This document shows, piece after piece, positions 22,453 to 45,943 of a stretch of 64,000 bases of DNA. The stretch is from the IMG/VR virus record IMGVR_UViG_3300044701_002789, positions 186,001 through 250,000 of that record, one strand, 5' to 3'. The notes under the pieces were generated by a model. That model was not told the DNA's origin. It searched no databases and saw only the letters and a list, made by a program, of their open reading frames with translations. The translations under genes were made by a program, and so were the position numbers. The stretch is from a virus. How positions within the stretch are numbered: the stretch's first letter is position 1; the number at the start of each line of letters is the position of its first letter.

Positions 22453-23934
22453 TCAGTCGGTGTCAAAGAAAAACATTTGCCATAGTCGTCCATTGTCCAT
22501 AACTGTCCCAAAGTATTGAGAAGCACTATGAATACAACTTGCATCAAAGATAACCAGACGATTATAAACATTTCCTAGAACATCAACAGGTTCAAATGGG
22601 GTTCCATCTAAATGACACCCTCCAGGAACATCAATCCACGCATCATTCCATCCTTCCTCATAATAAGTTCTTGCTTTTGTTTTCTTGTTAGCGTATAATG
22701 TGGTTCCACACTGATATGGTGCATTCGGTGTGAGGTACAACATACCACCCCACTTTTGATCGTCGCAATGATAAACTAAAGGTTCACCAGACCACGCAAC
22801 TTGAAATCTCCCATTCATCCCATGTTCTTCCCACTTTGTTATTTTTCTTCCCATGATTTCTTCAAATTTTTCTTTGAGTCCAGGAAATAAAAATTGTTGA
22901 TGAGTTCTTCTTCCAATGAATCCCCTACCCAAACCACCTTCAAGATAGTCTTGTTTTAATGCAAACTCTCTTACTTCATCTGGGTTCTCATAAAAGTTAT
23001 CTATAATCCAAGAAGTTGATTTGGAGTTAATATTAATATTAAATAGATTTTCTTGTTTAGGAAGCAAGAAATTTCTTACATTTGGCAAATTGAAGATAAT
23101 TTGTGGTAACAGATTAACTGGATAATTTTTTTGACTTAGTTTACTAGTTTGTTCTACTTCAATAATATCTTTCATAGATTCTGAACTTAAAGTATTAAGG
23201 TTGGAAAGATTATCGGATAAAACAGTAGTTTTTGCTTTATATTTTCTTAAAGTTTCATCTCCCATCCAAGTAAAATGCCACCCACAGTCTTCAATTATTT
23301 TTCCATTTTCAGTAATCCAAACCGGATCCAATGGACTACCATATTGTCCCCTGAATTTTGTCGGAGATCCTCCATTTGATAATTGTCTTTTAGTACACAA
23401 AAGAAGAGATTGACTCCAATCTGCCGGCACATCTCCCTCATAAAGTCTTTTATTCGCTTGACCTTCTAAAAGAACTAAAGGAACTTTAATGATATTGTTT
23501 GGAATATTTCTACAACATGTTGAAAAATATAGAATAAATTCTGGATTGATTATTTCATCACAATCACTTACGATAAAAACATCATCATCATCGTATTCAT
23601 CTATTACAGACATTAGAGCATCTCTTTGTAATCTTTCTCTAGTCCAATTTTTAACTTGAGTTGATTTTGCTTCTAATGAATAGACATAATCAGATTCATC
23701 TGGAATTAAATCTTCACTATCCGGCACAATAGTTTCAATAACCTGAATTTTATCCTTTGGTAAATTAAGATCTTCTATTAGTTTTTTACAAATAAAATCT
23801 TTATCATCTCCATTATGTGTTTTATTTGATTCAGAGATAATAAACTTATCCACATGATCTTTTAGTAGATTAATTCTAAGTTCTAATAATTCTTTTTCAA
23901 TGAAAAAAGTAAAATAATCAATAATCTTTTTCAT
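22453..23934 (-). CDS. GT17-like glycosyltransferase fused to 2OG-oxygenase-like domain
   Basis: A 493-residue two-domain protein. Residues 1-260 resemble glycosyltransferase family 17: DYFTFFIEKELLELRINLLK at the start, ESNKTHNGDDKDF, WTRERLQRDALM, DDDDVFIVSDCDE as the metal/donor site, and GWHFTWMGDETLRKYKAK. Residues about 280-493 resemble a 2-oxoglutarate/Fe(II) oxygenase: YHCDDQKWGGMLYL gives an HxD pair, and IHSASQYFG with NGRLWQMFFFD gives the distal His and the Arg. No signal peptide. The fusion suggests hydroxylation plus glycosylation of one substrate, plausibly a fibre protein encoded in this island. Confidence 0.75.
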   Translation of the reverse strand: MKKIIDYFTFFIEKELLELRINLLKDHVDKFIISESNKTHNGDDKDFICKKLIEDLNLPKDKIQVIETIVPDSEDLIPDESDYVYSLEAKSTQVKNWTRERLQRDALMSVIDEYDDDDVFIVSDCDEIINPEFILYFSTCCRNIPNNIIKVPLVLLEGQANKRLYEGDVPADWSQSLLLCTKRQLSNGGSPTKFRGQYGSPLDPVWITENGKIIEDCGWHFTWMGDETLRKYKAKTTVLSDNLSNLNTLSSESMKDIIEVEQTSKLSQKNYPVNLLPQIIFNLPNVRNFLLPKQENLFNININSKSTSWIIDNFYENPDEVREFALKQDYLEGGLGRGFIGRRTHQQFLFPGLKEKFEEIMGRKITKWEEHGMNGRFQVAWSGEPLVYHCDDQKWGGMLYLTPNAPYQCGTTLYANKKTKARTYYEEGWNDAWIDVPGGCHLDGTPFEPVDVLGNVYNRLVIFDASCIHSASQYFGTVMDNGRLWQMFFFDTD

Positions 23935-24516
23935 TTAATACCACTCTGTAAATTTAATTCTATTTTCCGAAAATACTTTTTTGTAATTTTCTATTTTATT
24001 TCTATAAACAACTAAATCATCAAAAAAATGTGGATGAAATTCAATGTAAATTTCATTAATGTATTTAATTGTGCCAGATGATATTAATTTATCTATAATA
24101 TCAAATTCGCTTCCTTCAACATCTAATTTTACAACAATAAAATCATTAATACTAGAAAATGTTTCTATAATATTTGAAAAATCTAATACCCTTACTATCT
24201 CTGTTTCTGAATTATATTTAATTGGATTCTCTTGTAATTTTTGTGGGGGATTTAATAATATATTAGAAGACTGCCCAGTAAATGTACCAACTTCAGTTCC
24301 ATCCCAAATAGTAGATTCGGATAGGTTTAAATTTACATAATCATTTTTATTAGATACACCAGCATTAAAATGAATAATATTCAATCCATCATCTAATAAT
24401 TTTAAATAATTTTCTTTTGAACTAATATATGTTTTTGGATTTGGTTCAAAACAATAACATTCCCAACTAGAATCTATACCATAGATTTTAGATATTTCGT
24501 TGAACCCCTGAAACAA
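23935..24516 (-). pseudogene. FkbM-type methyltransferase domain, start lost or frameshift-dependent
   Basis: The 193 codons encode an FkbM-type SAM methyltransferase: CFEPNPKTY (SAM pocket), VKLDVEGSEFDII and a C-terminal IYIEFHPHFF strand. The usual FkbM N terminus (KKFFDCGTHLFQGF) extends upstream in this frame to the poly-A tract at 24538-24549, after which a stop closes the frame; no ATG is available, only a TTG at 24516. It therefore looks like the second half of a TPR-FkbM-FkbM protein, joined to the upstream gene by a -1 shift at the homopolymer, or a frameshifted remnant. Expression from TTG cannot be excluded. Confidence 0.6.
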
Positions 24517-25844
24517 GTGTGTTCCGCAGTCAAAGAATTTTTTTTTTTTAAATTTTTATTAGTACTCTGAATTTCATTATTAATATAAACCATAAATTCA
24601 CAATTATAAGTGTCAATAAAAGTATCATCAAATATTTTATCAGTTATGTCTAGTGATTTTCCCCAAGAAATATTTTGTCTGGTGCAAGACATTACCTTGT
24701 AATCGTTGAACTTAGTTAAATATGTATCTCTGAATTTTTTGAATTTTTCTCTGAAATTATAACCTTTGAGGTGAATTTCTATTGATATAAATTTAACATT
24801 ATTGAATATAAAATCTATATTTTCTTCGGTAAAAATATTATATTCACCACCTTCACAGTCAACTTTCATATAATCAATATGATTAATTGAATATGTTGAT
24901 ATAAGTTCTTTAAAAGTAATGGGAATAAAACTCTTATCATTCCCAAAAACATTAATTTCATCAGTATTATTACTTACTATTCCATTATTAATATAAGTTA
25001 TTGATGTATTAAAGTTATTGAATAATTTTTCGGAACAGTTTTTAACCAATGTTTTTAGTAAATTTTTAGATGGTTCAACACAATATACTTTTTTTGGTTT
25101 TTGATCTAAAATTGATATAGTATATGCACCAACACTTGCACCAATATCCAAAACAATATCATTTTCTTTTACATCTTTCCAAAATCTATAAACATTTTCA
25201 TGTATCACTTCTCTTTCTATTGTAACAATGTCTTCTTCCGTTAGGTCTGCCCAATCAAAGTTGTTTGGATAATTAAATGTTTGACCGATTGAATTTTTTC
25301 CTAATCTAATTAAGTTTTGATTTATACTATTTTTGTGTAATTCATCAAAATTATCCCAGTAATTTTTTGTAAGAAGATCAAATAGATTTCTACTTTCATC
25401 ACCTTTACCCCACCACCAAGCTGCAACTGCTTTTTGGAATAACAATAAATGTTTTCCACTATACTCAGGAATGTTAATACTTTCTATTTCATTATTATGA
25501 CATTGTAGACCAAGATTTGCATAGGTATAACAACTTTGCCATTCTTGGTTCTTTTCATACAATAGAGATAAGAAATAATATGCCTCTGGTCTTTGTGGCA
25601 ATAAGTTTAAGGCATTTTCTAATGTTACTTTTTCAGTATTATCTCTTGAACCTTGTAATTTATAACAAAACGCTGATTTTAGTAAACATTCATAAGCAAG
25701 TAAATCATTTTTAGATCTTTCCGCAGTTCTTAGATAATAAGTGTGTGCGGGTGCATACTGACCTTGTTTTTCATACCATTTCGCGAGATTATAATTATTT
25801 TCTGGATTTTCGGTATCTAGTGAAAATTTAATAAGCTCATTCAT
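24474..25844 (-). CDS. TPR protein with FkbM methyltransferase domain
   Basis: From the ATG at 25844 (MNELIKFSLDTENPENNYNL), preceded by GAGGAC; a start at 25859 is possible. Residues 1-150 hold TPR-like repeats (NYNLAKWYEKQGQYAPAHTY). Residues about 225-430 are an FkbM methyltransferase: DIVLDIGASVGAYTISIL for SAM binding and YMKVDCEGGEYNIF. After the natural end of that domain (NCEFMVYINNE) the frame runs through AAAAAAAAAAAA into about 22 unrelated residues and stops. The second FkbM domain lies in the other frame just beyond. Likely methylates a glycan or protein. Confidence 0.75.
   Translation of the reverse strand: MNELIKFSLDTENPENNYNLAKWYEKQGQYAPAHTYYLRTAERSKNDLLAYECLLKSAFCYKLQGSRDNTEKVTLENALNLLPQRPEAYYFLSLLYEKNQEWQSCYTYANLGLQCHNNEIESINIPEYSGKHLLLFQKAVAAWWWGKGDESRNLFDLLTKNYWDNFDELHKNSINQNLIRLGKNSIGQTFNYPNNFDWADLTEEDIVTIEREVIHENVYRFWKDVKENDIVLDIGASVGAYTISILDQKPKKVYCVEPSKNLLKTLVKNCSEKLFNNFNTSITYINNGIVSNNTDEINVFGNDKSFIPITFKELISTYSINHIDYMKVDCEGGEYNIFTEENIDFIFNNVKFISIEIHLKGYNFREKFKKFRDTYLTKFNDYKVMSCTRQNISWGKSLDITDKIFDDTFIDTYNCEFMVYINNEIQSTNKNLKKKNSLTAEHTCFRGSTKYLKSMV
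24538..24549 (-). other. Poly-A(12) slippery tract between two FkbM domains
   Basis: Twelve consecutive A residues on the coding strand. With 12 A the first FkbM frame leaves into a short nonsense tail. With 13 A, or by a -1 ribosomal or transcriptional slip, it continues directly into KKFFDCGTHLFQGF, the start of the second FkbM domain. Confidence 0.7.
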
Positions 25845-26814
25845 TAATAAAGTCCTCAACTACTGATTTTGAAATTCTGAGTATATACGCTGCGTTGTCT
25901 TGCGTTCCAAATGTAATTAGAAAATCATCATTATATTCGGCCATGCCACAAGAAAATTCAATTTTAAAATTTAAAAATGAAAATAACTTTGATACTTTTT
26001 GAAGTTTAAAATTCTTATCCCATATAACAAACCGATGACGATAAGTTGCATCTTTTCTACCTTGTTCTGAATTATAAAGTTCTGTTTCATGGAGAAGAGA
26101 AAGATATCCATTTTGATATGGAATAACTTGTGAACCACCTCTTAAATCATTTTTTAATTCTGTAGTGTAAGGACTTGTTTCAATTATTGTGGAATCTTTT
26201 CCTGTAATATCAAATTTCAATAATGCAGTTGGATTAGTCCATTTTAAAAGATGAAAAGGTTTATCTTCAATTGGAGTACAATTTTTCATACAATATTCAT
26301 CATCTGGTGGAGGACCTGGAATTCTATATCTAGAAACTTCTTTAACTTCAGAACCATTGAACCTCAATTCAGAAAGTTCCATTCTTCCAGTTCCAATAGT
26401 GTCTACATCTCTGCGTACACCTATAGCGTAAATCTTACCGTTCCATTGAATCAAACGAACATCTTCCAACCCAACAAATTCCCATTGTGGTTGATAAGTA
26501 TCAAAATTTGATGTATCTATTTTTGAGTAATGGAGTATATTTAAATCTTCATCTAATTCTGCAATATGATTTGCAGTTCTGAGGTGCATATCATTCTCTG
26601 GGTGTATGTAGGATAATGGTCCCCACATATGTTCAAATTTATTTAATTCCGAATGATATAATGTGTAATTTACATTTCTGATATTGACTAATATTCTTCC
26701 ATCAACTACTAAAACTGATGGATTTGTGAGAGAAGGTCCACAGAGATCTTCGGGATTTATGAGAAGTGGTTTAATAATGCCACCATTATCTAATGCAAGT
26801 TTTACAAAATTCAT
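25837..26814 (-). CDS. GH130/GH43-like beta-propeller protein
   Basis: A 325-residue protein with a five-bladed propeller pattern: LTNPSVLVVDGRILVNIRN, GLEDVRLIQWNGKIYAIGVR, CTPIEDKPFHLLKWTNP, LRGGSQVIPYQNGYLSLLHE, YRHRFVIWDKNFKL and EFSCGMAEYNDDFLITFG. These resemble glycoside phosphorylases and hydrolases of family 130 and related clans. The substrate is probably a mannan-like or surface glycan. It is coupled to the TPR-FkbM gene, so it works with glycan-related neighbours. Confidence 0.65.
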   Translation of the reverse strand: MNFVKLALDNGGIIKPLLINPEDLCGPSLTNPSVLVVDGRILVNIRNVNYTLYHSELNKFEHMWGPLSYIHPENDMHLRTANHIAELDEDLNILHYSKIDTSNFDTYQPQWEFVGLEDVRLIQWNGKIYAIGVRRDVDTIGTGRMELSELRFNGSEVKEVSRYRIPGPPPDDEYCMKNCTPIEDKPFHLLKWTNPTALLKFDITGKDSTIIETSPYTTELKNDLRGGSQVIPYQNGYLSLLHETELYNSEQGRKDATYRHRFVIWDKNFKLQKVSKLFSFLNFKIEFSCGMAEYNDDFLITFGTQDNAAYILRISKSVVEDFINE

Positions 26815-26838
26815 AATACTATAACGAGTTCTTGAATG

Positions 26839-26846
26839 TATTTATT
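26839..26846 (-). promoter_or_regulatory. Late-promoter-like box AATAAATA
   Basis: AATAAATA on the minus strand, 25 bp before the ATG at 26814 and inside the last codons of the tail-assembly gene. One mismatch from TATAAATA. Confidence 0.4.
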
Positions 26847-27192
26847 CTGGTTTAATGGGCCAAATAATTTCTCTAGGAAATTTTGATTGTTGAGGAATAT
26901 CTAAAAGTAATTGTCTATATTCAGTCCAATTGTCTTTTTCTTCTTGAGTAAAAGAATTCCAACGAATAACATTTATTGTATCAATGTAAATTGAAAGATA
27001 CTTATTTCTTCGGATTCTTTGTTTTTGGCACCATTCCTCATAGGTCATCCATCCATTTTCATTCCAAAACCATCCAATTTCTCCGTCGTTTTGTGGAGTA
27101 GAAATAAGTTCTTCTGTATCAGTCCAAGATTGGTCGTATAGAATATCTACACATTCTCTTGTATTCTTATTAATGACACATATTTTATTCAT
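26842..27192 (-). CDS. Tail-fibre assembly chaperone-like protein
   Basis: A 116-residue protein with the layout of phage tail-assembly proteins: an N-terminal strand-rich part followed by RRNKYLSIYIDTINVIRWNS, FTQEEKDNWTEYRQLLLDIP and a C-terminal EIIWPIKPE. The pattern of RN.LL...DW......W..YR..L.DIP is typical. AAGGAG precedes the ATG. It lies directly downstream of the collagen-like fibre gene, as expected for a dedicated chaperone. Confidence 0.7.
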   Translation of the reverse strand: MNKICVINKNTRECVDILYDQSWTDTEELISTPQNDGEIGWFWNENGWMTYEEWCQKQRIRRNKYLSIYIDTINVIRWNSFTQEEKDNWTEYRQLLLDIPQQSKFPREIIWPIKPE

Positions 27193-27204: not shown

Positions 27205-28659
27205 TTATAGTTTTAAATATTCTACTATTAAAATTGTACCCGCAGCTCCGGTTCCACCAACAACACCTGTAAGTAAATTTATATTTACTGCACCAGAACC
27301 TCCTGCACCGGGTTGTGTTGCGTTTATTCCAGCATTTGAACCTGCAGTAAATCTTACTGGTCCGTTTGCTCCGCCGCCCCAATATGATGCACCACCGTTC
27401 CCCGCAGTAACCGTATTGTTACCCACACCCAAACCGGGCAAACCATCGAGTCCAGTATGAAGAATGTCACCTCCAGTAGGAATTCCACCATTTCCACCAT
27501 TAAATGCCGATGTGTTGGCTGCATAAGCACTTCCAGTTCCAAATCCACCTTCTCCACCAGTTCCGACTAAAACAATGGAATCAATTCCAGTACAGGTAAA
27601 AATTGAGTTAGATCCATTTCCACCATTTCCGCCAAGAACAGTACCTGCAGCACCTCCACCTCCAACAGTATAGGTGGCGGTTGTCCCCAATTGTGCGGCA
27701 GTTAACCATTTAATTGATGTTCCTCCTCCTCCTCCGCCTCCAGAGCAACTACCAGATGAACCATCGGAGTCGGATCCTCCTCCTCCACCACCTCCACCAG
27801 TGACGAATACTTGAGCAATTATTGTTTTTGGATCTCTAGTAAAAGTTCCTGAACCTACTGAATTATATCTGGTTATTTTTACTGATGATATTCCTACGCT
27901 TCCATCTACTTCCACACTCCCATCCACTTTTACATTTCCAGCAACATGGAGTTTTGAATTTAATTGTGGATTCAATGTTCCTATACTAATAGAACCATCT
28001 AGAAATAAATTACTTGTACTCGGATTAAAACTGAATGGGGGTGATGTTGTTCTTATACTTGGCGTCTGATTTCCAGTTCCTGCAACAAACACTGGATAAA
28101 ATGTCGAATTGGTAGTAGTATCAAATGCTGAAATGACATTAGATGGTCCATTTAATCCTTGAATTCCTTGAGATCCTGTAGTTCCTTGAATTGATATTCC
28201 CTGAGTTCCTTGAATACCAAAATTACCTTGAATACCTTGAATTCCTTGAGATCCTGTAGTTCCTTGAATTGATATTCCCTGAGTTCCTTGAATACCAAAA
28301 TTACCTTGAATACCTTGAATTCCTTGAGATCCTGTAGTTCCTTGAATTGATATTCCCTGAGTTCCTTGAATACCAAAATTACCTTGAATACCTTGAATTC
28401 CTTGAGATCCTGTAGTTCCTTGACGACCTTGAATACCTTGAGTTCCTTGAGATCCTGTAGATCCTTGAGTACCTTGAATACCTTGAGTTCCTTGAGATCC
28501 TGTAGATCCTTGAGTACCTTGAATACCTTGAGTTCCTTGAGATCCTGTAGTTCCTTGACGACCTTGAATACCCTGAGTTCCTTGAGATCCTGTAGATCCT
28601 TGAATTCCCTGAGTGCCCCTAAAACTTGAATCTAAAAATGCGGAAAGATTTACTGGCAT
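27205..28659 (-). CDS. Collagen-like tail fibre with glycine-rich C-terminal domain
   Basis: A 484-residue fibre protein. After MPVNLSAFLDSSFR, residues about 14-172 are Gly-X-Y repeats with the motif GTQGIQGSTGSQ. In the middle a 26-residue unit (GNFGIQGTQGISIQGTTGSQ plus GIQGIQ) is repeated three times and breaks the triplet phase at GISIQG. A beta-rich stalk with VAGNVKVDGSVEVDGSVGIS follows, then from about residue 280 a glycine-rich head (VTGGGGGGGGSDSDGSSGS) like T-even gp38-type adhesins. The head is probably the receptor-binding part. Proline is absent from the collagen repeats. Confidence 0.8.
   Translation of the reverse strand: MPVNLSAFLDSSFRGTQGIQGSTGSQGTQGIQGRQGTTGSQGTQGIQGTQGSTGSQGTQGIQGTQGSTGSQGTQGIQGRQGTTGSQGIQGIQGNFGIQGTQGISIQGTTGSQGIQGIQGNFGIQGTQGISIQGTTGSQGIQGIQGNFGIQGTQGISIQGTTGSQGIQGLNGPSNVISAFDTTTNSTFYPVFVAGTGNQTPSIRTTSPPFSFNPSTSNLFLDGSISIGTLNPQLNSKLHVAGNVKVDGSVEVDGSVGISSVKITRYNSVGSGTFTRDPKTIIAQVFVTGGGGGGGGSDSDGSSGSCSGGGGGGGTSIKWLTAAQLGTTATYTVGGGGAAGTVLGGNGGNGSNSIFTCTGIDSIVLVGTGGEGGFGTGSAYAANTSAFNGGNGGIPTGGDILHTGLDGLPGLGVGNNTVTAGNGGASYWGGGANGPVRFTAGSNAGINATQPGAGGSGAVNINLLTGVVGGTGAAGTILIVEYLKL
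28138..28620 (-). repeat. Short tandem repeats coding collagen triplets
   Basis: Units of 36 nt and a 78-nt triplicate encode Gly-X-Y triplets of the 484-aa fibre. High identity between units makes this a place for slippage, length variation and misassembly. Confidence 0.8.
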
Positions 28660-28740: not shown

Positions 28741-29100
28741 TTATGTGTATATTTTTATTTCTTTATAAAGAGAATTATGTGTCTCGTTAATTTCTCTTTT
28801 TATTCTTGCTCTTTCATCATTAGTAATATAAACACCTCTCGCAAGTTCTATAAATTTCTCATCAAACACTTGAGATTTTTCCATCACTCTTAATTCATCT
28901 TCAATTTTCCAGAGTTTACGATTGATTGTAAGTAATTTTGAAACATAAGATGCATCATAAACCTTATGTTCTTGTGCAATTTGAATAAGTTCTTGAAGTT
29001 CCTTCTTTACATATTCATTAGAAGTGTGTTGTGACTTAATGGAAAGTATAGAAATTTTATCTAAAAGTTCACCGACTGATACTGGAATTTCAATTCTCAT
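28741..29100 (-). CDS. DUF6165-like protein
   Basis: A 119-residue protein starting MRIEIPVSVGELLDKISILS, then helical with ELIQIAQEHKVYDASYVSKL. This N terminus matches the DUF6165 family, whose members are commonly found among glycan-biosynthesis genes. The stop is followed by a late-like AT-rich region. It overlaps the end of the methyltransferase-GT2 gene. Confidence 0.6.
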   Translation of the reverse strand: MRIEIPVSVGELLDKISILSIKSQHTSNEYVKKELQELIQIAQEHKVYDASYVSKLLTINRKLWKIEDELRVMEKSQVFDEKFIELARGVYITNDERARIKREINETHNSLYKEIKIYT

Positions 29101-30646
29101 TTGTAGTATTATAAAGATTTAAAATTGCATCAGTTCTTTCTTTGAGATTTATTGTTTCTTGTGAAAATCCAGATGCAAATATAATGATATTTGGATTTTG
29201 TGTGAGTTTTCCAATGTTTAATAGATGAGTAAATGCCTTACCCATTAAATGACCACCAAGGTTCATTGCTTCACTTAATGCGTGAAATGCATAATTAGAT
29301 GCTCTTGAAATATCTTGAAGTTGTATGAGACAAATACTCGTCATAATAAACACATCAACTCTTGTCGGGTCAAAATAAGGTTTAGACATATTCAAATATT
29401 CTTGACCCAATTCAACTGCTTTTTGAATGTTTTGAACTTGATAATAATGTTTAAATATAAACCAGAGATAATAAATGTTTTGATACTGTTCATACTCTCT
29501 TTCACAAATTGAAAGATAGAATAATTCCTTATCTATTGTATTATGAATATTTTTTGTAATCTTAATTGTGGTATCTACTGCAACTTCATTTAGATAATCT
29601 TTTGTTGGAATAAACATTGGAGTTTCATGAACTGAATTCACCCAGGTATAATTCTTGGTTCGGTGAAAGCGAATATGTGAAGTTTGACCCAAGGTTGGTT
29701 CATTGTCTCCTTCTTTATCATATCGTTCGTGTCTAAATGCAGTGAATTCATTTGAGATTACTTCAAGACCTTCTGGAAAGAAATCATCTAAATCTTCATT
29801 AAAATCCAATGAAAATGCCCAGTCAGTTTTTACATAAGATAATGCTTGATTTCTTGCGATTGAGAAATCAAACTCTTCTCTGGTTTGTGAGTGTTGATGA
29901 ACTTCAATTCCCGCTTCTTGCAGTAGTTCTACTGTTTTATCAGTACTTCCGGTATCAACTACAACAGTGTGAGTGAATTTCTTTGAGTTCTCAATGAACT
30001 TTTGAATATTCTTTTCTTCGTTTTTGCAAATTGCATATAATGTAATTTCCATTTTATCTCCTTGTTTTTGATGTAACCAAACTTTACTTAATGTACAATC
30101 TCCACGATTAAGAAGAACTACAGATTTACCTGTAAAATATTCATTAACTGCTTGAATAACTCCATTCCAACTAATTACATAATCATCGCCGGTAATAAAA
30201 CCTCCCGGTTTGACCTTTGGATACCATGCAATAATGTCTGCAAGAACATTTTCATAATCGTGAGATGCATCAATATGAACAAAATCAAGACTATTATCTT
30301 CAAACTGTTTTGCTGCCTCAATACTTGTGGTTTGTAATGGTATTACATAATTACTTACACCACATTGTTCAAGATTATATTTAAATGCATCAAATAAAGT
30401 AAAATTCTGTGTCTTTAATCTATTTAATGCTTCTTTATGAGCATCTTCATCACTACCTTCCCAAGTATCTACTGCATAAAACTTGATGTTTTTATTTGAG
30501 TTCTTAATCTGTTCTCCCATATAACAAGTTGATTGCCCCATCCAAGAACCCACTTCTACGAAAGTTGAGTTATCTGGGCAGTATTTGATTGCTAAATCAT
30601 AAAGATTAGTATAAGAAAAATAACCCTCAATGTCTTTCCAATTCAT
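29090..30646 (-). CDS. Methyltransferase-GT2 glycosyltransferase-TPR fusion
   Basis: 518 residues from the ATG at 30646 (MNWKDIEGYFSYTNLYDLAI), overlapping the upstream stop as ATGA; the open TTG at 30661 is rejected. Domain 1 (about 1-185) is a class I methyltransferase: FVEVGSWMGQSTCYMGE, FYAVDTWEGSDEDAH and DFVHIDASHDYENVLADI. Domain 2 (about 200-380) is a GT2 glycosyltransferase: ITLYAICKNEEKNIQKFIEN, VVVDTGSTDKTVELL and a DFNEDL acidic site in place of DxD. The C-terminal 120 residues are helical and TPR-like. Confidence 0.8.
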   Translation of the reverse strand: MNWKDIEGYFSYTNLYDLAIKYCPDNSTFVEVGSWMGQSTCYMGEQIKNSNKNIKFYAVDTWEGSDEDAHKEALNRLKTQNFTLFDAFKYNLEQCGVSNYVIPLQTTSIEAAKQFEDNSLDFVHIDASHDYENVLADIIAWYPKVKPGGFITGDDYVISWNGVIQAVNEYFTGKSVVLLNRGDCTLSKVWLHQKQGDKMEITLYAICKNEEKNIQKFIENSKKFTHTVVVDTGSTDKTVELLQEAGIEVHQHSQTREEFDFSIARNQALSYVKTDWAFSLDFNEDLDDFFPEGLEVISNEFTAFRHERYDKEGDNEPTLGQTSHIRFHRTKNYTWVNSVHETPMFIPTKDYLNEVAVDTTIKITKNIHNTIDKELFYLSICEREYEQYQNIYYLWFIFKHYYQVQNIQKAVELGQEYLNMSKPYFDPTRVDVFIMTSICLIQLQDISRASNYAFHALSEAMNLGGHLMGKAFTHLLNIGKLTQNPNIIIFASGFSQETINLKERTDAILNLYNTTNEN

Positions 30647-32910: not shown

Positions 32911-32918
32911 AGTTGTTT

Positions 32919-35898: not shown

Positions 35899-36353
35899 AG
35901 GTAATCTGTATTAAAACTAATAATTATTCTTTCTTCTGTTTCTTCTTCAGTATAATGAATTAAATCACTTGAGAAAATAACCAAAAGACCTGGATAGGGT
36001 GCAATAGATTTATTTGGAAATATCAATGGTGTCTTTCCTGAAATATAAAATGCACCACTGATGATACTTTCTTCGTGTTTATGTGCCTTGAGTTTATTTC
36101 CTGGTTGTGATATATTGAACCAACTGTTGATAATCTTAAGTGATGGAATGTGATATTTATTGCAATATGTATGAATATATTTTTCTATGATGACTTTTAA
36201 TCCATTTAACTCTGGATACATTAAAATCGGCATTCCATAATTATAAGTAGAAACTCCATTTGTTACAAGACCGTGAGTACTGGTTTTGATTTGTAGAAGT
36301 TTATTTTTAATAGAATTTAGATTGAGAAAAGAAAGATTATATTCCTCTATCAT
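35895..36353 (-). CDS. 2OG-Fe(II) oxygenase-like protein
   Basis: A 152-residue double-stranded beta-helix candidate. SWFNISQPGNKLKAHKHEES supplies the HxE/HxH metal pair, LVIFSSDLIHYTEEETEERI gives the distal His, and an Arg follows in ERIIISFN. The arrangement matches small phage dioxygenases of the 2OG-FeII_Oxy_5 type. The substrate may be a tail-fibre residue. The ATG overlaps the stop of the GT9-like gene. Confidence 0.7.
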   Translation of the reverse strand: MIEEYNLSFLNLNSIKNKLLQIKTSTHGLVTNGVSTYNYGMPILMYPELNGLKVIIEKYIHTYCNKYHIPSLKIINSWFNISQPGNKLKAHKHEESIISGAFYISGKTPLIFPNKSIAPYPGLLVIFSSDLIHYTEEETEERIIISFNTDYL

Positions 36354-37704: not shown

Positions 37705-40083
37705 TTAGAATGATACAAAATCTACTGATTGGATTGCTGTTGTGTGAGCATTTCCAGCACTCACTTGTTTCCAATTATTCCCTCCAGCAAATGTAGTGAC
37801 TGGAGTGATTCTACTTATATTATTTGCATTTCCAAGTCTACCATTAGTTCCCTCACCCCAAGTCCAAAGGGTTCCATCGGTTTTGATTGCTGCTGTGTGA
37901 AAACCTCCAGCACTCACTTGTTTCCAATTCGTTCCTCCAGAAAATGTGGTGACTGGAGTACTTATGTTTGTAGTTTGTGCATTTCCAAGATTTCCATTAT
38001 TTCCAAAACCCCAAGTCCAAAGAGTTCCATCGGTTTTGACTACTGATGTATGTTGATTTCCTGCACTCACTTGTTTCCAATTCGTTCCTCCAGCGAATGT
38101 TGTGACTGGAGTGCTTCTATTTGTAATATCATTAGTTCCAAGTCTTCCGTTATTTCCATAACCCCAAGTCCAAAGGGTTCCATCGGTTTTGATTGCTGCT
38201 GTATGTTCATTTCCAGCACTCACTTGTTTCCAATTAGTTCCTCCCGCAAATGTTTCATTTGGAACCCAATCAATACTATCAAGTCCTGATCCAAGTTGAC
38301 CGTTAAGATTTATACCGAACAAATAAAGCTCTTTATTTACACCATCATCATATAAAGAAATTGTATGATCTCTACCACAACTTACTTGTTTCCAATTCGT
38401 TCCTCCAGCGAATGTTGTGACTGGAGTGCTTCTATTTGTAATATCATTAGTTCCAAGTCTTCCGTTATTTCCATAACCCCAAGTCCAAAGGGTTCCATCG
38501 GTTTTGATTGCTGCTGTGTGAAAACCTCCAGCACTCACTTGTTTCCAATTCGTTCCTCCGGCAAATGTTGTGACTGGAGTGCTTCTATTTGTAGTTTGTG
38601 CATTTCCAAGTTGTCCAAAACCTCCATAACCCCAAGTCCAAAGGGTTCCATCGGTTTTGATTGCTGCGGTAAAACTACCTCCAGCACTCACTTGTTTCCA
38701 ATTCGTTCCTCCAGCGAATGTTGTGACTGGAGTGCTTCTATTTGTAGTTTGTGCATTTCCAAGTTGTCCAAATGGACTACTAAAAAGACTATTTGACCCC
38801 CAAGTCCAAAGAGTTCCATCGGTTTTGATTGCTGCCGTATGAGTGGAAAAATTACTCGCCGATATTGCTGTTCCACAACTTACTTGTTTCCAATTGGTTC
38901 CTCCAGCAAAGGTGGTAACTGGAGTACTAAAGGTTCCTGTAGTTGCTCCATTTCCAAGTCTTCCATTACTACCAAGACCCCAAGTCCAAAGAGTACCATC
39001 TGTTTTAATTGCTGCTGTGTAATTAACTCCAGCACTCACTTGTTTCCAATTGGTTCCTCCAGAAAATGTGGTGACTGGAGTGCTTCTATTTGTAGTTTGT
39101 GCATTTCCAAGTTGTCCAAAACCTCCATAACCCCAAGTCCAAAGGGTTCCATCGGTTTTGACTACTGCTGTATAATAACCTCCAGCACTTACTTGTTTCC
39201 AGTTAGTTCCTCCAGCAAAGGTGGTAACTGGAGTACTAAAGGTTCCTGTAGTTGCTCCATTTCCAAGTCTTCCGTTATTTCCATAACCCCAAGTCCAAAG
39301 AGTTCCATCGGTTTTGATTGCTGCTGTGTGAAAACCTCCAGCACTTATTGTATATAAATCTTCTGGTTCTGATGAAGGTACATCTTTCCAATTTATTCCT
39401 CCAGCGAATGTAGTTACAGGAGTAACTTTATTGGTTCCTATAGCAAATCTTCCAAGCCTTCCATTACCTCCATAACCCCAAGTCCAAAGGGTTCCATCGG
39501 TTTTGATTGCCGTTACATGAATAGTTCCTAAACTCACTTGTTTCCAATTCGTTCCTCCAGCAAATGTTGTGACTGGAGTGCTTCTATTTGTAATATCATT
39601 AGCTCCAAGTTTTCCATTATCACCATAACCCCAAGTCCAAAGAGTACCATCTGTTTTAATTGCTGCTGTGTAATTAACTCCAGCACTCACTTGTTTCCAA
39701 TTGGTTCCTCCAGAAAATGTGGTGACTGGAGTACTTGTATCAGTAATAGTTGCATTTCCAAGTCGTCCACCACTTCCACTACCCCAAACCCAAAGGGTTC
39801 CATCGGTTTTGATTGCTGCTGTGTGAAAACCTCCAGCACTCACTTGTTTCCAATTCGTTCCTCCAGCAAATGTGGTAACTGGAGTAATTCTATCTGTAAT
39901 TGCTGAATTTCCAAGATTTCCATTATTTCCAAAACCCCAACACCAAAGTTCTGGAGGAATACCAATCTGTTGTCCAATAGAAGGATAAACACTCAACAAA
40001 TAATCCTTACGAACTAACTTACTTCCCAAATCAACTCCATTACTATCTTTAAAATTGGTAGTGATATTTTGATTAGAACTCAT
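37705..40083 (-). CDS. Double RCC1 propeller fibre protein
   Basis: A 792-residue protein with an N-terminal segment of about 45 residues and 14 RCC1 repeats (seven per propeller), each starting NWKQVSAG and containing AIKTDGTLWTWGYG. The repeat number is exactly twice that of the other two RCC1 proteins. Several repeats are identical at DNA level over about 100 bp. One repeat (about residue 232) has an insertion (PSSEPEDLYT). Probably a tail-fibre head made by duplication of a single-propeller gene. Confidence 0.8.
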   Translation of the reverse strand: MSSNQNITTNFKDSNGVDLGSKLVRKDYLLSVYPSIGQQIGIPPELWCWGFGNNGNLGNSAITDRITPVTTFAGGTNWKQVSAGGFHTAAIKTDGTLWVWGSGSGGRLGNATITDTSTPVTTFSGGTNWKQVSAGVNYTAAIKTDGTLWTWGYGDNGKLGANDITNRSTPVTTFAGGTNWKQVSLGTIHVTAIKTDGTLWTWGYGGNGRLGRFAIGTNKVTPVTTFAGGINWKDVPSSEPEDLYTISAGGFHTAAIKTDGTLWTWGYGNNGRLGNGATTGTFSTPVTTFAGGTNWKQVSAGGYYTAVVKTDGTLWTWGYGGFGQLGNAQTTNRSTPVTTFSGGTNWKQVSAGVNYTAAIKTDGTLWTWGLGSNGRLGNGATTGTFSTPVTTFAGGTNWKQVSCGTAISASNFSTHTAAIKTDGTLWTWGSNSLFSSPFGQLGNAQTTNRSTPVTTFAGGTNWKQVSAGGSFTAAIKTDGTLWTWGYGGFGQLGNAQTTNRSTPVTTFAGGTNWKQVSAGGFHTAAIKTDGTLWTWGYGNNGRLGTNDITNRSTPVTTFAGGTNWKQVSCGRDHTISLYDDGVNKELYLFGINLNGQLGSGLDSIDWVPNETFAGGTNWKQVSAGNEHTAAIKTDGTLWTWGYGNNGRLGTNDITNRSTPVTTFAGGTNWKQVSAGNQHTSVVKTDGTLWTWGFGNNGNLGNAQTTNISTPVTTFSGGTNWKQVSAGGFHTAAIKTDGTLWTWGEGTNGRLGNANNISRITPVTTFAGGNNWKQVSAGNAHTTAIQSVDFVSF

Positions 40084-40757
40084 TCCAGTCCTCCTAAGAA
40101 ATCAAAAGGTCTTTCTGGTTGTTCACGAACCACTACATTATAAACATCATCAATGGTCGCACACGCATCAATTTCCTGAAGTTTTGAGAGTTCCCAGTCA
40201 AATGCCTCTTGAACTTTTAAGTCAACCTGATGAATAATATATTGAAGTTCTTCAGTGGTAATCTCCAACCAAGTGTTTTTAAACTTAAAGTTATGAGGAC
40301 CAGGAGATGCAGAAAGTTTTGCTGCTAATAAAATTCTTTCTTCTCTTGAGGTTGATACTTCTACTTCAGTTTCATTTACTGTGAGTGTAATTGTAGTATT
40401 TTCTTTTTCTCTTCTATAAGGTGCAACTTCTTGTTTGCGACGTTCTTTGACTTCTTCAAGGGTTTTATCAGTAACTGGATAAGTCAATAAAACCTTAATA
40501 GGAACATTGTTCTCTTCAACAATTGACCAAGTAAAATTACCAATATTTTGATACTTGGGGTCGTGTGATGGAATATCTTTTTCTATTTGTAAAAGATGTG
40601 TAAGACCATCACTAAAATGAATTGGAATTTCTGTGTAACTTGAAGGATTGAGAGTTTCTTCTACTTCAAGGTCTTCTAATTCAGCATTCATCATTCGGAC
40701 ATTGTAACCAATCGGTCCTAAAATCAATGAGTTGTTATGAATAAGTGCGAGTTCCAT
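40080..40757 (-). CDS. Fibre-associated protein with DUF4376-like C terminus
   Basis: A 225-residue protein. Residues about 105-225 include TLTVNETEVEVSTSREERIL, FKNTWLEITTEELQYIIHQV and DLKVQEAFDWELSKLQEIDA, matching the DUF4376 pattern often next to tail fibres. The N-terminal half is beta-rich. It lies between two RCC1 fibre genes and may be a chaperone or connector. Confidence 0.65.
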   Translation of the reverse strand: MELALIHNNSLILGPIGYNVRMMNAELEDLEVEETLNPSSYTEIPIHFSDGLTHLLQIEKDIPSHDPKYQNIGNFTWSIVEENNVPIKVLLTYPVTDKTLEEVKERRKQEVAPYRREKENTTITLTVNETEVEVSTSREERILLAAKLSASPGPHNFKFKNTWLEITTEELQYIIHQVDLKVQEAFDWELSKLQEIDACATIDDVYNVVVREQPERPFDFLGGLE

Positions 40758-40770: not shown

Positions 40771-40778
40771 TATTTATG
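40771..40778 (-). promoter_or_regulatory. Late-promoter-like box CATAAATA
   Basis: CATAAATA on the minus strand, 14 bp before the ATG at 40757, one mismatch from TATAAATA. The short distance makes the leader very brief, so the call is tentative. Confidence 0.35.
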
Positions 40779-41955
40779 AGAGTGGAAGGTCTGCTGGGAT
40801 ACCTGCGGTGACTGCTGCTGTGTTAGAAATCTGTTTCCAGTTAGTTCCACCAGCAAATGTAGTGACTGGAGTACTTCTATCAGTATTATTTGCATTTCCG
40901 AGTTTTCCACTAACTCCAGAGCCCCAAATCCACAAGGTTCCATCAGTCTTAATTGCTGTTATGTAATTAACTCCACAACTAACTTGTTTCCAATTAGTCC
41001 CCCCAGCAAATGTAGTGACTGGAGTACTTCTATCAGTATTATTTGCATTTCCAAGTTGTCCAGAAGTCCCAGTACCCCAAGTCCACAAGGTTCCATCAGT
41101 CTTAATTGCTGTTGTGTGATAAAATCCACAACTTACTTGTTTCCAATTAGTCCCCCCAGCAAATGTAGTGACTGGAGTACTTCTATCAGTATTATTTGCA
41201 TTTCCAAGTTGTCCAGCATACCCATAACCCCAAGTCCAAAGAGTTCCATCGGTTTTGACTGCTGCTGTATGACTATATCCACAACTCACTTGTTTCCAGT
41301 TCGTCCCTCCGGCAAATGTGGTGACCGGAGTACTCGTGTTTCCAGTAACTATCCCGTTTCCAAGTTCTCCAAAAGACTCACTACCCCAAAGCCAAAGAGT
41401 TCCATCGGTTTTGATTGCTGCTGTACAATAACCTACAGAACTCACTTGTTTCCAGTTCGTCCCCCCGGCAAAAGTGGTAATGGGGGTGCTTCTATTTGTA
41501 GCATTTGCATTTCCAAGTTGTCCAGAATACCCACGACCCCAGGTCCAAAGAGTTCCATCTGTTTTAATTGCTGTTGTGTGATAACTTCCAAATCCCGAAC
41601 TCACTTGTTTCCAGTTGGTTCCTCCTGCAAATGTGGTAACCGGGGTACTTCTTACTGTATAACCTGCATTTCCAAGTTGTCCACTATCTCCACTACCCCA
41701 AGTCCAAAGCGTACCATCAGTTTTAATTGCTGTTGTGTGAACACTTCCAGCACTCACTTGTTTCCAATTAGTCCCCCCAGCAAATGTAGTGAGGGGGGTA
41801 CTAAAGTTTCCAGTAGTTGCTCCATTTCCAAGTCTTCCATTATCACCATAACCCCAAGTCCAAAGTTCATCACCAATATATTGGTCAATTAACCAATATT
41901 CACTCACATAATAATTCTCAATGTCTCCTTCTGGGGATAAGAACTGATTAGGCAT
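40774..41955 (-). CDS. RCC1-type propeller fibre protein (393 aa)
   Basis: Seven RCC1 repeats (TNWKQVSAG to NWKQISNTA) follow a 30-residue N-terminal segment (MPNQFLSPEGDIENYYVSEY). The repeats are nearly as similar to those of the two other RCC1 proteins as to each other. The start overlaps the end of the big collagen-like gene by 8 bp, so it is probably its partner or cap. Confidence 0.8.
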   Translation of the reverse strand: MPNQFLSPEGDIENYYVSEYWLIDQYIGDELWTWGYGDNGRLGNGATTGNFSTPLTTFAGGTNWKQVSAGSVHTTAIKTDGTLWTWGSGDSGQLGNAGYTVRSTPVTTFAGGTNWKQVSSGFGSYHTTAIKTDGTLWTWGRGYSGQLGNANATNRSTPITTFAGGTNWKQVSSVGYCTAAIKTDGTLWLWGSESFGELGNGIVTGNTSTPVTTFAGGTNWKQVSCGYSHTAAVKTDGTLWTWGYGYAGQLGNANNTDRSTPVTTFAGGTNWKQVSCGFYHTTAIKTDGTLWTWGTGTSGQLGNANNTDRSTPVTTFAGGTNWKQVSCGVNYITAIKTDGTLWIWGSGVSGKLGNANNTDRSTPVTTFAGGTNWKQISNTAAVTAGIPADLPLS

Positions 41956-44900
41956 TTATCTTATCCTCCAATTCTTCAATGCGAATTTGTTGTTCCTTAA
42001 TTGCTTCAATTAATACTGCAACAATGTTTCCGTAAGAAACTGTTTTCAATCCTTTTGCATTTGTAGTTACAACTTCAGGTAATACCTTTTCAATTTCTTG
42101 TGCAATCACACCGATAGATGATTTATTATGTCCATCAATCCAATCATAATAAACACCATCAATTCGTTTTACCAATTCCACTGCATTCTCAATGGGTCTT
42201 ATATTTTCTTTCTGGGTTTGGTCAGATAGTGATGTGAATACAGTTGCATAAAGAGTTCCAGTGCTTGGTTGGAATTCTAATTTATTGTCTGATGCATATG
42301 TTGCGGTAGGTGTTCCGGTTGCAACATCCGAGAATGTTGGGAAGAAAATGTTTGAAGATGCAGTTTCGTTAGTGATGCTACCACTTCCACCGGAGGTTCC
42401 TTGAATACCTTGAATTGAAGTTCCTTGAGTACCTTGAATACCTGTGGTTCCTTGAATACCTTGTGTTCCTTGAGATCCTGTGGTTCCTTGGCGACCCTGT
42501 ATACCTTGAGTACCTTGAGATCCTGTGATACCTTGTGTTCCTTGAGATCCTGAACCTGTAATTCCTTGAGTACCTTGAATACCTTGGATACCTTGTGATC
42601 CTGTGATACCTTGTGTTCCTTGAGATCCTGAACCTGTAATTCCTTGGCGACCTTGAATACCTTGTGATCCCGTGGTTCCCTGGATACCTTGTGTTCCTTG
42701 TGATCCCGTGGTTCCCTGGATACCTTGTGTTCCTTGAGATCCTGTAGTTCCTTGAATACCTTGTGTTCCTTGAGATCCTGTGGTTCCTTGGATACCTTGT
42801 GTTCCTTGAGATCCTGTGGTTCCTTGGCGACCCTGTATACCTTGAGTACCTTGAGATCCTGTGGTTCCTTGGATACCTTGAGTTCCTTGAGAACCAGTAG
42901 TTCCTTGAATACCTTGAGTTCCTTGAGATCCTGTGGTTCCTTGGAGACCCTGTATACCTTGAGTTCCTCCAGATGACCAACTTACTCCAATTCCAGTAGA
43001 AATTAATATCGAACCTGCAGTACCTACCTGATTATTACTATCATAAAGACCATTGCGAATTCTAATATTTCCAACTATATCTAATTTTTGTGATGGATTG
43101 GTAGTTCCCAAACCAATGTTCCCATCAAAAGGTGCAAGTTGTATAGTTCCATTTGCATCCACATCAATACTTGGAATACCGGAAACATCGTTAACACTAA
43201 AGATAGAACCACTTGTAAGATTATTTGTAATGCTGAATAATTGTCCAGCAGACGCTTCAAATGATAGTGTCCCAGAATTGAGAGTATCATAATGAATAAT
43301 ATCAATAATAGTTCCAATACCAACTGTACCAATACCAGATGATGGTCCACTATAAGTTAAACTTGTACTTCCAGTTGGGTTATTAGATGCATCTTTATAA
43401 ACAATTTGATTTGCAGAACCAGCAACAGGACCTGTTATTCCTTGAATACCTTGAGTTCCTTGAGATCCTGTGGTTCCCTGAATACCTTGAGTTCCTTGAG
43501 ATCCTGTGGTTCCCTGAATACCTTGAGTACCTTGAGATCCTGTGGTTCCTTGAGATCCTGTGGTTCCCTGAATACCTTGAGTACCTTGAGAACCAGTGGT
43601 TCCTTGAATACCTTGAGTTCCTTGAGATCCTGTGGTTCCTTGACGACCTTGAATACCTTGAGAACCAGTGGTTCCTTGAATACCTTGAGTTCCTTGAGAT
43701 CCTGTGGTTCCCTGAATACCTTGAGTACCTTGAGATCCTGTGGTTCCCTGGATACCTTGAGTTCCTTGAGATCCTGTGGTTCCTTGAATTCCTTGAGTAC
43801 CTTGAGATCCTGTGGTTCCTTGAGATCCTGTGGTTCCCTGAATACCTTGTGTTCCCTGGATACCTTGTGTTCCTTGAGAACCTGTGGTTCCCTGAGAACC
43901 TGTGGTTCCTTGAATTCCTTGAGTACCTTGAGATCCTGTGGTTCCTTGAGATCCTGTGGTTCCCTGGATACCTTGTGTTCCTTGAGAACCAGTTGTTCCT
44001 TGACGACCTTGAATACCTTGAGATCCTGTGGTTCCTTGAATTCCTTGTGTTCCCTGGATACCTTGTGTTCCTTGAGATCCTGTGGTTCCCTGAGAACCTG
44101 TGGTTCCTTGAATTCCTTGAGTACCTTGAGATCCTGTGGTTCCCTGGATACCTTGTGTTCCTTGAGATCCTGTGGTTCCCTGGATACCTTGTGTTCCTTG
44201 AGATCCTGTGGTTCCTTGACGACCTTGAATACCTTGAGAACCTGTGGTTCCTTGAATACCTTGAGTTCCTTGAGATCCTGTGGTTCCCTGAATACCTTGA
44301 GTACCTTGAGATCCTGTGGTTCCTTGGATACCCTGAACACCTTGCAGTGCAGCACTTTGAATAGTATCTTTCTTTAACTGACCATCAGTTACATCATAGA
44401 ATAAAATAAAATCATTACTTGCTGCGGCAGTTTGAGTTCTATCATTAATTAATCCAGGATTTGCACTTCTAATATTGGAAATTGTTACTCCAGTACCTAA
44501 AGTAGTAGAAGATAAAACCTCAGTACCCCCAATTTCATATACTTTTCCAACTTCAAGATTAACATTATCACTAAATTTTAATGCGGAATTAGTGTTATCC
44601 CAGGTAATTGTTTTTCTTATATTTGTAGAACCAATACCAATTCCTGCACCATCAAGGAGTATATTTGTTCCAATAGTAGATGCAACTCCAATTTGATAAT
44701 CTGCAAGTTCAATAGTTGTAGAATTTACTTGTGTAGTTGTTCCGTCAACATACAAATCACCTTTAATTCTTACAAGTCCAGTATTATCTCCTATTGTAGT
44801 TGGGTCAATAATAAGTTCAGTTGGACCATTAATTTGATTTACATACAGTGATGTTCCATCAAAAGTTAAATTTGGAGAACCAGTTGGATTATTTGAACCA

Positions 44901-45943
44901 TCTTTATATACTACTTGATTTGCAGAACCAGCAACAGGACCTGTTGTTCCTTGAATTCCTTGAGTACCTTGAGATCCTGTGGTTCCTTGAATTCCTTGAG
45001 TACCTTGAGATCCTGTGGTTCCTTGAGATCCTGTGGTTCCTTGGATTCCTTGAGTTCCTTGAGATCCTGTGGTTCCCTGGATACCTTGAGTTCCTTGAGA
45101 TCCTGTGGTTCCTTGACGACCTTGAATACCTTGAGATCCTGTGGTTCCTTGACGACCTTGAATACCTTGAGATCCTGTGGTTCCTTGAATACCTTGTGTT
45201 CCTTGAGATCCTGTGGTTCCCTGAGAACCTGTGGTTCCCTGAATACCTTGAGTTCCTTGAGAACCTGTGGTTCCCTGAATACCTTGAGTTCCTTGAGATC
45301 CTGTGGTTCCCTGGATACCTTGAGTTCCTTGAGATCCTGTGGTTCCCTGGATACCTTGAGTACCTTGAGTACCTTGAGTACCTTGAGATCCTGTAGTTCC
45401 TTGAGATCCTGTGGTTCCTTGAATACCTTGTGTTCCTTGAGATCCTGTGGTTCCTTGAGAACCTGTGGTTCCCTGAATACCTTGAGTTCCTTGAGATCCT
45501 GTGGTTCCTTGAATACCTTGAGTACCTTGAGTACCTTGAGAACCTGTGGTTCCTTGACGACCTTGAATACCTTGAGAACCTGTGGTTCCCTGGATACCTT
45601 GAGTACCTTGAGTACCTTGAGATCCTGTAGTTCCTTGGATTCCTTGAGTACCTTGTGATCCTGTGGTTCCTTGAACTCCTTGCAATGCAGCAGTTGATAT
45701 TGATTCCCACTTAATACCAGAACCAGTGGATAATAGAACTGATGTTGCAGCACCCACTTGATCAAAACTATCATAAATTCCACCACGAATTCTTACATCT
45801 CCCGCAACATCTAATTCTTGTGTTGCATTCGTGGTTCCAATACCAACCTTACCAGTAACCTCAAGTACTATTTGATTTTCAGTATAAGAAGTAATACCGA
45901 TTCTGAGATTTCTTTGACGATTACTAATATATCCTTTAGGCAT
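41948..45943 (-). CDS. Giant collagen-like fibre with C-terminal S74 chaperone
   Basis: A 1331-residue fibre. Residues 1-87 are a beta-rich head ending in VGIGTTNATQELDVAGDVRI. Three Gly-X-Y blocks follow at about 87-336, 533-836 and 993-1182, built from GTQGIQGTTGSQ and variants with GRQ or GSQ. They are separated by two beta-domains (PVAGSANQVVYKDGSNNPTG and similar). From about residue 1237 (LSDQTQKENIRPIENAVELV, then IGVIAQEIEKVLPEVV and LIEAIKEQQIRIEELED) is a peptidase S74-type intramolecular chaperone that is normally cleaved off after trimer assembly. Proline is nearly absent in the repeats. Confidence 0.85.
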   Translation of the reverse strand: MPKGYISNRQRNLRIGITSYTENQIVLEVTGKVGIGTTNATQELDVAGDVRIRGGIYDSFDQVGAATSVLLSTGSGIKWESISTAALQGVQGTTGSQGTQGIQGTTGSQGTQGTQGIQGTTGSQGIQGRQGTTGSQGTQGTQGIQGTTGSQGTQGIQGTTGSQGTTGSQGTQGIQGTTGSQGTTGSQGTQGTQGTQGIQGTTGSQGTQGIQGTTGSQGTQGIQGTTGSQGTQGIQGTTGSQGTTGSQGTQGIQGTTGSQGIQGRQGTTGSQGIQGRQGTTGSQGTQGIQGTTGSQGTQGIQGTTGSQGTTGSQGTQGIQGTTGSQGTQGIQGTTGPVAGSANQVVYKDGSNNPTGSPNLTFDGTSLYVNQINGPTELIIDPTTIGDNTGLVRIKGDLYVDGTTTQVNSTTIELADYQIGVASTIGTNILLDGAGIGIGSTNIRKTITWDNTNSALKFSDNVNLEVGKVYEIGGTEVLSSTTLGTGVTISNIRSANPGLINDRTQTAAASNDFILFYDVTDGQLKKDTIQSAALQGVQGIQGTTGSQGTQGIQGTTGSQGTQGIQGTTGSQGIQGRQGTTGSQGTQGIQGTTGSQGTQGIQGTTGSQGTQGIQGTTGSQGTTGSQGTQGIQGTQGIQGTTGSQGIQGRQGTTGSQGTQGIQGTTGSQGTTGSQGTQGIQGTTGSQGTTGSQGTQGIQGTQGIQGTTGSQGTTGSQGTQGIQGTTGSQGTQGIQGTTGSQGTQGIQGTTGSQGTQGIQGTTGSQGIQGRQGTTGSQGTQGIQGTTGSQGTQGIQGTTGSQGTTGSQGTQGIQGTTGSQGTQGIQGTTGSQGTQGIQGITGPVAGSANQIVYKDASNNPTGSTSLTYSGPSSGIGTVGIGTIIDIIHYDTLNSGTLSFEASAGQLFSITNNLTSGSIFSVNDVSGIPSIDVDANGTIQLAPFDGNIGLGTTNPSQKLDIVGNIRIRNGLYDSNNQVGTAGSILISTGIGVSWSSGGTQGIQGLQGTTGSQGTQGIQGTTGSQGTQGIQGTTGSQGTQGIQGRQGTTGSQGTQGIQGTTGSQGTQGIQGTTGSQGTQGIQGTTGSQGTQGIQGTTGSQGIQGRQGITGSGSQGTQGITGSQGIQGIQGTQGITGSGSQGTQGITGSQGTQGIQGRQGTTGSQGTQGIQGTTGIQGTQGTSIQGIQGTSGGSGSITNETASSNIFFPTFSDVATGTPTATYASDNKLEFQPSTGTLYATVFTSLSDQTQKENIRPIENAVELVKRIDGVYYDWIDGHNKSSIGVIAQEIEKVLPEVVTTNAKGLKTVSYGNIVAVLIEAIKEQQIRIEELEDKINA
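42396..42970 (-). repeat. Collagen-coding repeat block 3
   Basis: Tandem 36-nt-type units coding Gly-X-Y triplets 993-1182 of the giant fibre. Units vary by synonymous and Thr/Arg/Ile changes. It is the block with most interruptions (GSGSQG). Confidence 0.75.
43435..44343 (-). repeat. Collagen-coding repeat block 2
   Basis: Longest uninterrupted array of Gly-X-Y coding units (about 300 codons). Antisense frames are also free of stops because of the regular repeat, which explains long spurious ORFs here. Confidence 0.75.
44935..45681 (-). repeat. Collagen-coding repeat block 1
   Basis: About 250 codons of Gly-X-Y units near the N terminus of the giant fibre, with the same 12-residue unit as blocks 2 and 3. 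The three blocks share near-identical segments, so recombination between them is likely. Confidence 0.75.

Follow-up and report, generated by a model that had tools for sequence, protein, structure and literature searches.

The window analyzed here, 64,000 nucleotides long, comprises bases 186001–250000 of a 258,362-base virus record (IMGVR_UViG_3300044701_002789). The closest cultured relatives of the phage are Kyanoviridae (T4-like cyanophages), foremost S-SRM01 from freshwater Synechococcus; it is itself a large, T4-like phage (Kyanoviridae, 258 kb) that infects cyanobacteria. Between 22.4 and 46.0 kb of the window lies an island, entirely on the minus strand (as are all window features below), of two collagen-like fibers, three RCC1 propellers, two fiber-assembly chaperones and 14 enzyme or accessory genes, and it is the pairing within it of an RCC1 beta-propeller gene with a TPR-containing glycosyltransferase (TPR-GT) that concerns us here. 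In transcription order, from 45943 to 22453, the island runs large collagen-like fiber, RCC1, DUF4376 chaperone, RCC1, TPR-GT, 2-oxoglutarate (2OG) oxygenase, two GT-like proteins, Cys-rich protein and RCC1, followed by sulfotransferase, two GT2-like proteins, methyltransferase-GT2 fusion, DUF6165, collagen/Gly-rich fiber, tail assembly chaperone, GH130-like protein, TPR-FkbM, FkbM and GT17-DUF6445. A sequence-only reading of this DNA had described two collagen-like and three RCC1 fibers interleaved with modifying enzymes in coupled frames, and all the parts it named are present; the coupling is real, with overlaps of 4–67 nucleotides or gaps of at most 30 nucleotides between most neighbors. 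The island makes up 9% of the 258-kb genome and holds three of its four Glycos_transf_2 matches, both FkbM matches, the sole PF13759 match and all RCC1 matches.

Island proteins were assigned to domains with Pfam, and two proteins lacking a Pfam GT match were modeled with AlphaFold and compared by Foldseek. The RCC1 protein directly upstream of the TPR-GT (propeller 2, 792 residues, 37705–40083) was recognized by its RCC1 repeat matches, propeller 3 (393 residues, 40774–41955) matches PF25390 with an E value of 8e-114, and propeller 1 (396 residues, 32919–34109) is likewise a Pfam assignment; the three together have 28 PF00415 repeat matches, all above cut-off, and are RCC1 repeat propellers. 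Two Pfam-assigned chaperone genes that the sequence-only reading had overlooked, together with DUF6165, encode a DUF4376 protein (40080–40757), a probable tail-fiber assembly chaperone, and a Phage_tail_APC fiber assembly chaperone (26842–27192). Their position among tail genes and chaperones suggests that the RCC1 proteins are virion fibers.

The TPR-GT (36337–37677) is the core enzyme of the pairing, as judged from its fold and gene linkage. Its AlphaFold model (pLDDT 92) has helices over residues 3–173 followed by alternating strands and helices, an N-terminal TPR domain joined to a GT-B domain, and its best PDB matches in Foldseek are the protein O-glycosyltransferases OGT and SPINDLY, along with the GT9 entry 3tov. 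Pfam returned only TPR matches for this protein, with no GT match and no match to PF13844, the GT41 domain. By eye, its SCTSxAHxA motif resembles GT9, and the motifs of the GT domain are almost invariant in an alignment of 42 TPR-GT sequences.

Relatives of the TPR-GT were collected from IMG/VR in three rounds, and removal of GTs more than 90% identical left 73 non-redundant phage loci. The phage enzymes form three clades with no more than 20–30% identity to one another, which we call the window type, the marine AG-345 type and the BUCT-ZZ01 type, the latter two having 19–31% identity to the window protein. In 62 of the 73 loci an RCC1 gene immediately precedes the TPR-GT, and in 71 one lies no more than three genes away; shuffling RCC1 genes within loci, which preserves locus make-up but not within-clade descent, gave an expectation of 9.6 and no value as high as 62 in 20,000 simulations. 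Window-type loci mostly conserve the order RCC1, chaperone, RCC1, TPR-GT, 2OG, GTs, Cys, RCC1, sulfotransferase, GT, MT-GT2 (MT, methyltransferase) and DUF6165 down to 52% identity. The BUCT-type GT, which carries a methyltransferase-like C-terminal extension (by eye), lies immediately downstream of an RCC1 protein of up to ~3,300 residues, and phage BUCT-ZZ01 has a minimal RCC1 + GT pair. Very long propeller-repeat fibers, of ~3,300 residues, directly precede the GT in the BUCT-type loci L112, L115, L118, L129 and L138. In the AG-345-type loci (n = 6), RCC1 and GT are separated by an oxygenase-like gene (by eye). In the exceptional locus L122/L123, another beta-propeller (Ycf48/BNR-like, by eye) replaces RCC1; at the RCC1 position of its relatives, L123 encodes a 2575-residue fiber whose C-terminal part resembles a Ycf48/BNR-type propeller (L123:2099-9823).

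An RCC1-led reverse search recovered paired loci (L308, L309/L310 and L312), and a search with the AG-345 RCC1 protein as query returned just three loci. With the sulfotransferase as marker, RCC1 is directly upstream in 37 of the 43 loci that have an upstream open reading frame (ORF), a result that adds little because nearly all of these loci belong to one clade. Accessory genes vary from locus to locus; one RCC1-GT-sulfotransferase island includes a carbamoyltransferase-like protein (NodU/CmcH-like by eye, L309:12089-13690). Among loci whose upstream flank spans 8 kb or more, a collagen-like ORF is present in 9/12 of the window type, 7/26 of the BUCT type and 0/5 of the AG-345 type, and collagen-like fibers are therefore optional.

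The nearest bacterial relatives of the TPR-GT, found by scanning genomes with the TPR-GT alignment, likewise adjoin RCC1 genes. On a Nomurabacteria (Patescibacteria) contig, L198, tatC precedes three RCC1 genes, a fusion of GT and sulfotransferase, and homologues of two window proteins, the GT2-like protein GTb and DUF6165; a survey of 380 genomes of that phylum found the enzyme solely in L198's own genome, so it is rare there. In another patescibacterium, L201, an RCC1 gene adjoins a 1349-residue fusion of sulfotransferase, RCC1-type GT, methyltransferase, TPRs and GT41 (PF13844, E value 2.5e-62; L201:1649-5695, the same as L246:13901-17947). Among 291 genomes of Bdellovibrionota, the phylum of L200, a strong GT match (E < 1e-100) occurs in 10, and RCC1 is adjacent or one gene off in 8 of these. 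Several of these pairs sit on contigs of 3.0–4.15 Mb, the size of whole chromosomes, with no other obvious polysaccharide genes around them; the genome collections consist partly of metagenome-assembled genomes (MAGs), and the best-secured bacterial cases are the chromosomes of Bdellovibrionota. Fiber-like proteins beside the pairs resemble, by eye, the MAT fibers known from prey recognition by Bdellovibrio (PMC10769870). L199, a 132-kb contig from a "Bacteroidetes" MAG, was not counted among the bacterial cases because its neighboring genes look like those of T4-like phages; it resembles a T4-like phage contig binned with a bacterium. The evidence for pairing gains independence from spanning two bacterial groups as well as three phage clades far removed from one another.

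The bacterial propellers also differ in their export signals. A motif search, rather than a dedicated predictor, found a twin-arginine motif in 10/10 GT-paired RCC1 proteins versus 0/7 unpaired paralogues from genomes of the same group (Fisher p 5e-5); all seven unpaired paralogues have Sec or lipoprotein-like starts. Twin-arginine translocation (Tat) is an export route for folded proteins, so Tat signals on the paired proteins would fit modification in the cytoplasm prior to export. In a tree of the enzymes, whose deep branches are long and whose branching order is unsure, RCC1-linked GTs are spread over several mixed clades of phages and bacteria, the Bdellovibrionota clade being well supported (100/99). 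The RCC1 link would thus appear either to predate the phage clades or to have arisen more than once.

We read the island as a fiber-modification operon whose core is probably an RCC1 beta-propeller fiber and its dedicated TPR-GT, with a probability of about 0.72. Because the propeller-enzyme pairing turns up again in phages that are only remotely related and on the chromosomes of predatory bacteria, the target of the island enzymes is probably the propeller protein itself and not the host cell. The observations behind this reading are the gene linkage in phages and bacteria, the fold, the fusions and the Tat/Sec contrast; from these we infer the propeller as acceptor, the modified residue, the order of steps and an adhesive role. 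The idea that the phage modifies its own fibers, put forward in the sequence-only reading, has better support than remodeling of host glycans, but judged by gene neighborhoods (RCC1 no more than three genes away in 71/73) the main evolutionary partner of the enzyme is the RCC1 propeller and not the collagen-like fiber. Several observations weigh against our interpretation. Whole-model TM-scores of the TPR-GT to OGT are low (0.3), so that the fold match depends on how the domains are arranged; conserved gene order inside one clade owes something to common descent; and the repeats of paired RCC1 proteins show a weak enrichment of Ser/Thr (p 0.03), which did not serve as main evidence. Of the strong bacterial GT matches, two (G157 and G134) have no RCC1 nearby, the phage GT of L186 is preceded by a Gly-rich fiber, and the RCC1-led search found RCC1 genes without a GT in L311, L313 and others. 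Nor does a GT adjoin the RCC1 fibers of the Gram-positive phages Clostridioides LIBA6276, Bacillus SP-15 and Brevibacillus Jenst, which were accordingly ruled out as further members of the system. As RCC1 fibers without the enzyme exist, the modification would be accessory.

The remaining enzymes bear out the inventory given in the sequence-only reading. Downstream of the TPR-GT are a 2OG-Fe(II) oxygenase (35895–36353; Pfam PF13759, 2OG-FeII_Oxy_5), a GT-A glycosyltransferase whose model (pLDDT 85) has glycogenin as its nearest fold and which lacks a Pfam GT match (35119–35898), a GT-like protein recognized by eye only, also without a Pfam GT match (34469–35122), and a YkgJ/CxxCxxCC-like Cys protein whose Pfam CxxCxxCC match is below cut-off (34126–34479). 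This Cys-rich protein (YkgJ/phrog_9155) is present in 22/22 non-redundant window-type loci and perhaps supplies metal to the oxygenase. Beyond propeller 1, the Pfam-assigned sulfotransferase (ORF 32128–32985) retains an intact PRSGST loop and probably starts at an internal ATG, giving a protein of 260 residues (32128–32910). It is followed by GTb (31328–32131; Pfam GT2), which has homologues in the Patescibacteria islands, by GTa (30643–31386; weak Pfam GT2) and by two Pfam assignments, a Methyltransf_24 + GT2 fusion (29090–30661) and DUF6165 (28741–29100). A GH130-like protein (25837–26814) matches Pfam below cut-off (E 0.04), and its relatives carry the deposited names "beta-mannosyltransferase" or "MGP"; Pfam further assigns a TPR + FkbM methyltransferase (24474–25859), an FkbM methyltransferase (23935–24516) and a GT17 + DUF6445 fusion (22453–23934) whose 2OG-oxygenase-like HxD...H is intact by eye. 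The GH130-like, TPR-FkbM and DUF6445 genes form a separable cassette that lies beside collagen-like fibers in phage DSL-LC02 and without a directly adjacent fiber in S-SCSM2R; a collagen acceptor is possible for this cassette.

The collagen-like fibers themselves are a protein of 1331 residues (41948–45943) with 245 GXY units and, by eye, an S74-type C-terminal chaperone, and a Pfam-assigned protein of 484 residues with a Gly-rich domain (27205–28659) and 46 GXY units. Their repeats are, as had been claimed, almost free of proline and rich in Ser/Thr, which occur in 176/245 units of the large fiber (Pro in 2) and in 27/46 of the small one (Pro in 0); in this the large fiber resembles BclA. More collagen-like ORFs lie at both ends of the record (G000:C1:68-1534 and G000:C1:257665-258276), which suggests a single fiber gene split by the contig ends.

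Other explanations for the island can be weighed against propeller modification. Because the Gly-X-Y repeats are rich in Thr/Ser, and because the GH130-like/FkbM/DUF6445 cassette adjoins a collagen-like fiber in DSL-LC02, the enzymes might chiefly O-glycosylate these repeats. We think this quite unlikely: most BUCT-type and all AG-345-type TPR-GT loci lack a collagen-like ORF, and the bacterial loci that were inspected showed none. The BclA-like Gly-X-Thr glycosylation proposed in the sequence-only reading found no specific support. A better case, though still an unlikely one, can be made for remodeling of host glycans, in which the enzymes would shut out competing phages by altering the lipopolysaccharide (LPS) O-chain or the capsule of the infected cell, and proximity to fibers would reflect a shared host-recognition cluster. 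Host O-chain modification is the published reading of GTs in the corresponding region of pelagimyophages and cyanomyophages (PMC7029224), and S-SRM01 has a second GT cluster located away from its fibers. That reading does not explain why the enzyme tracks one fiber type across phages and bacterial chromosomes: it is RCC1 in particular that the TPR-GT follows, both in three phage clades and in bacteria, where infection by a tail plays no part, and the Bdellovibrionota pair has no other obvious polysaccharide genes with it. This alternative, also entertained in the sequence-only reading, is weakened by the recurrence of the enzymes together with the propeller on bacterial chromosomes; the pair there with its Tat contrast, and the Patescibacteria fusions, favor cytoplasmic propeller glycosylation over remodeling of host LPS.

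The genes could also be functionally unrelated morons gathered where tail fibers recombine, as the region is hypervariable in T4-like cyanophages (PMC7029224), and accessory genes differ among loci. Yet RCC1 adjacency far exceeds the shuffled expectation (62/73 versus 9.6) and pairs are retained in unrelated bacterial chromosomes, which makes chance cargo slightly less probable still than collagen glycosylation. Finally, TPR domains serve as chaperone adaptors and fiber chaperone genes are adjacent, so the TPR-GT might now help the propeller to fold or assemble and have lost its enzyme activity; this we regard as very improbable, given near-invariant GT-domain motifs and the sulfotransferase, methyltransferase and GT41 domains fused or adjacent to its relatives.

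Under propeller modification, the propeller would be synthesized and folded in the cytoplasm, where the TPR domain of the 36337–37677 enzyme may dock on it and the GT-B domain attach a first sugar, either to a Ser/Thr-rich loop or to a residue hydroxylated by the neighboring 2OG oxygenase. The remaining GTs would lengthen the sugar, the sulfotransferase and methyltransferases would cap it, and the two chaperones would mount the decorated propeller on the tail; in Bdellovibrionota the equivalent pair would be exported in the folded state via Tat. More tentatively, and at slightly less than even odds, RCC1 and a dedicated TPR-GT, often with sulfotransferase and methyltransferase, may constitute an undescribed decoration system common to phages, predatory Bdellovibrionota and some Patescibacteria that would produce sulfated or methylated glyco-propeller attachment tips; a literature search for an RCC1-glycosyltransferase link yielded nothing on point. 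These are three kinds of agents that need to attach to bacterial cells.

Host-range prediction usually takes phage fibers as bare proteins. Were propeller tips to bear sugars and sulfates made by the phage, adsorption and host range would depend on the enzymes adjoining the fiber gene. The pairing also offers a testable acceptor for GTs that are abundant in tail-fiber regions of marine and freshwater phages and are currently ascribed to host LPS, and the small size of the minimal RCC1-GT pair puts a co-expression test within reach. The Bdellovibrionota link suggests a surface chemistry shared by phages and bacterial predators.

Among known systems, S-SRM01 (Serangoonvirus) has the identical order from RCC1, chaperone, RCC1 and TPR-GT through 2OG, GTs, Cys and RCC1 to sulfotransferase, although its deposited annotation draws no functional link among these genes. 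Its second GT cluster (L009:1-4187, record 200.3–205.0 kb) lies near photosynthesis genes and is a better candidate for host-glycan work. In the host recognition cluster of pelagimyophages and cyanomyophages, tail fibers are similarly intermixed with glycosyltransferases in the same genomic region, but the enzymes are read as host O-chain modifiers and, in the part of the account available to us, RCC1 pairing is not described (PMC7029224). Mycobacteriophage virions (Che8 and others) are glycosylated by phage-encoded glycosyltransferases according to Freeman et al. 2023, as cited in PMC11256854; there capsid proteins are modified, whereas here the candidate is a fiber propeller accompanied by sulfotransferase, oxygenase and methyltransferases. 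OGT and SPINDLY (GT41) are the nearest solved structures, with TPR and GT-B domains, and one Patescibacteria protein joins homologous enzymes to a true GT41 domain, but the window protein has no PF13844 match and its SCTSxAHxA motif is GT9-like by eye. FlmG of Caulobacter differs in that its substrate is flagellin, whereas the gene linked here encodes an RCC1 propeller, a partner known from gene linkage. In our tree, from which FlmG itself was left out, the alphaproteobacterial TPR-GTs retrieved by homology make up a distinct clade (100/100), and a simple motif search found no flagellin gene near them. FlmG has in common with the TPR-GT an N-terminal TPR domain and a C-terminal GT-B domain; in FlmG the former binds flagellin and the latter modifies it, so that a surface filament protein is glycosylated while still in the cytoplasm, ahead of its export (PMC7591256).

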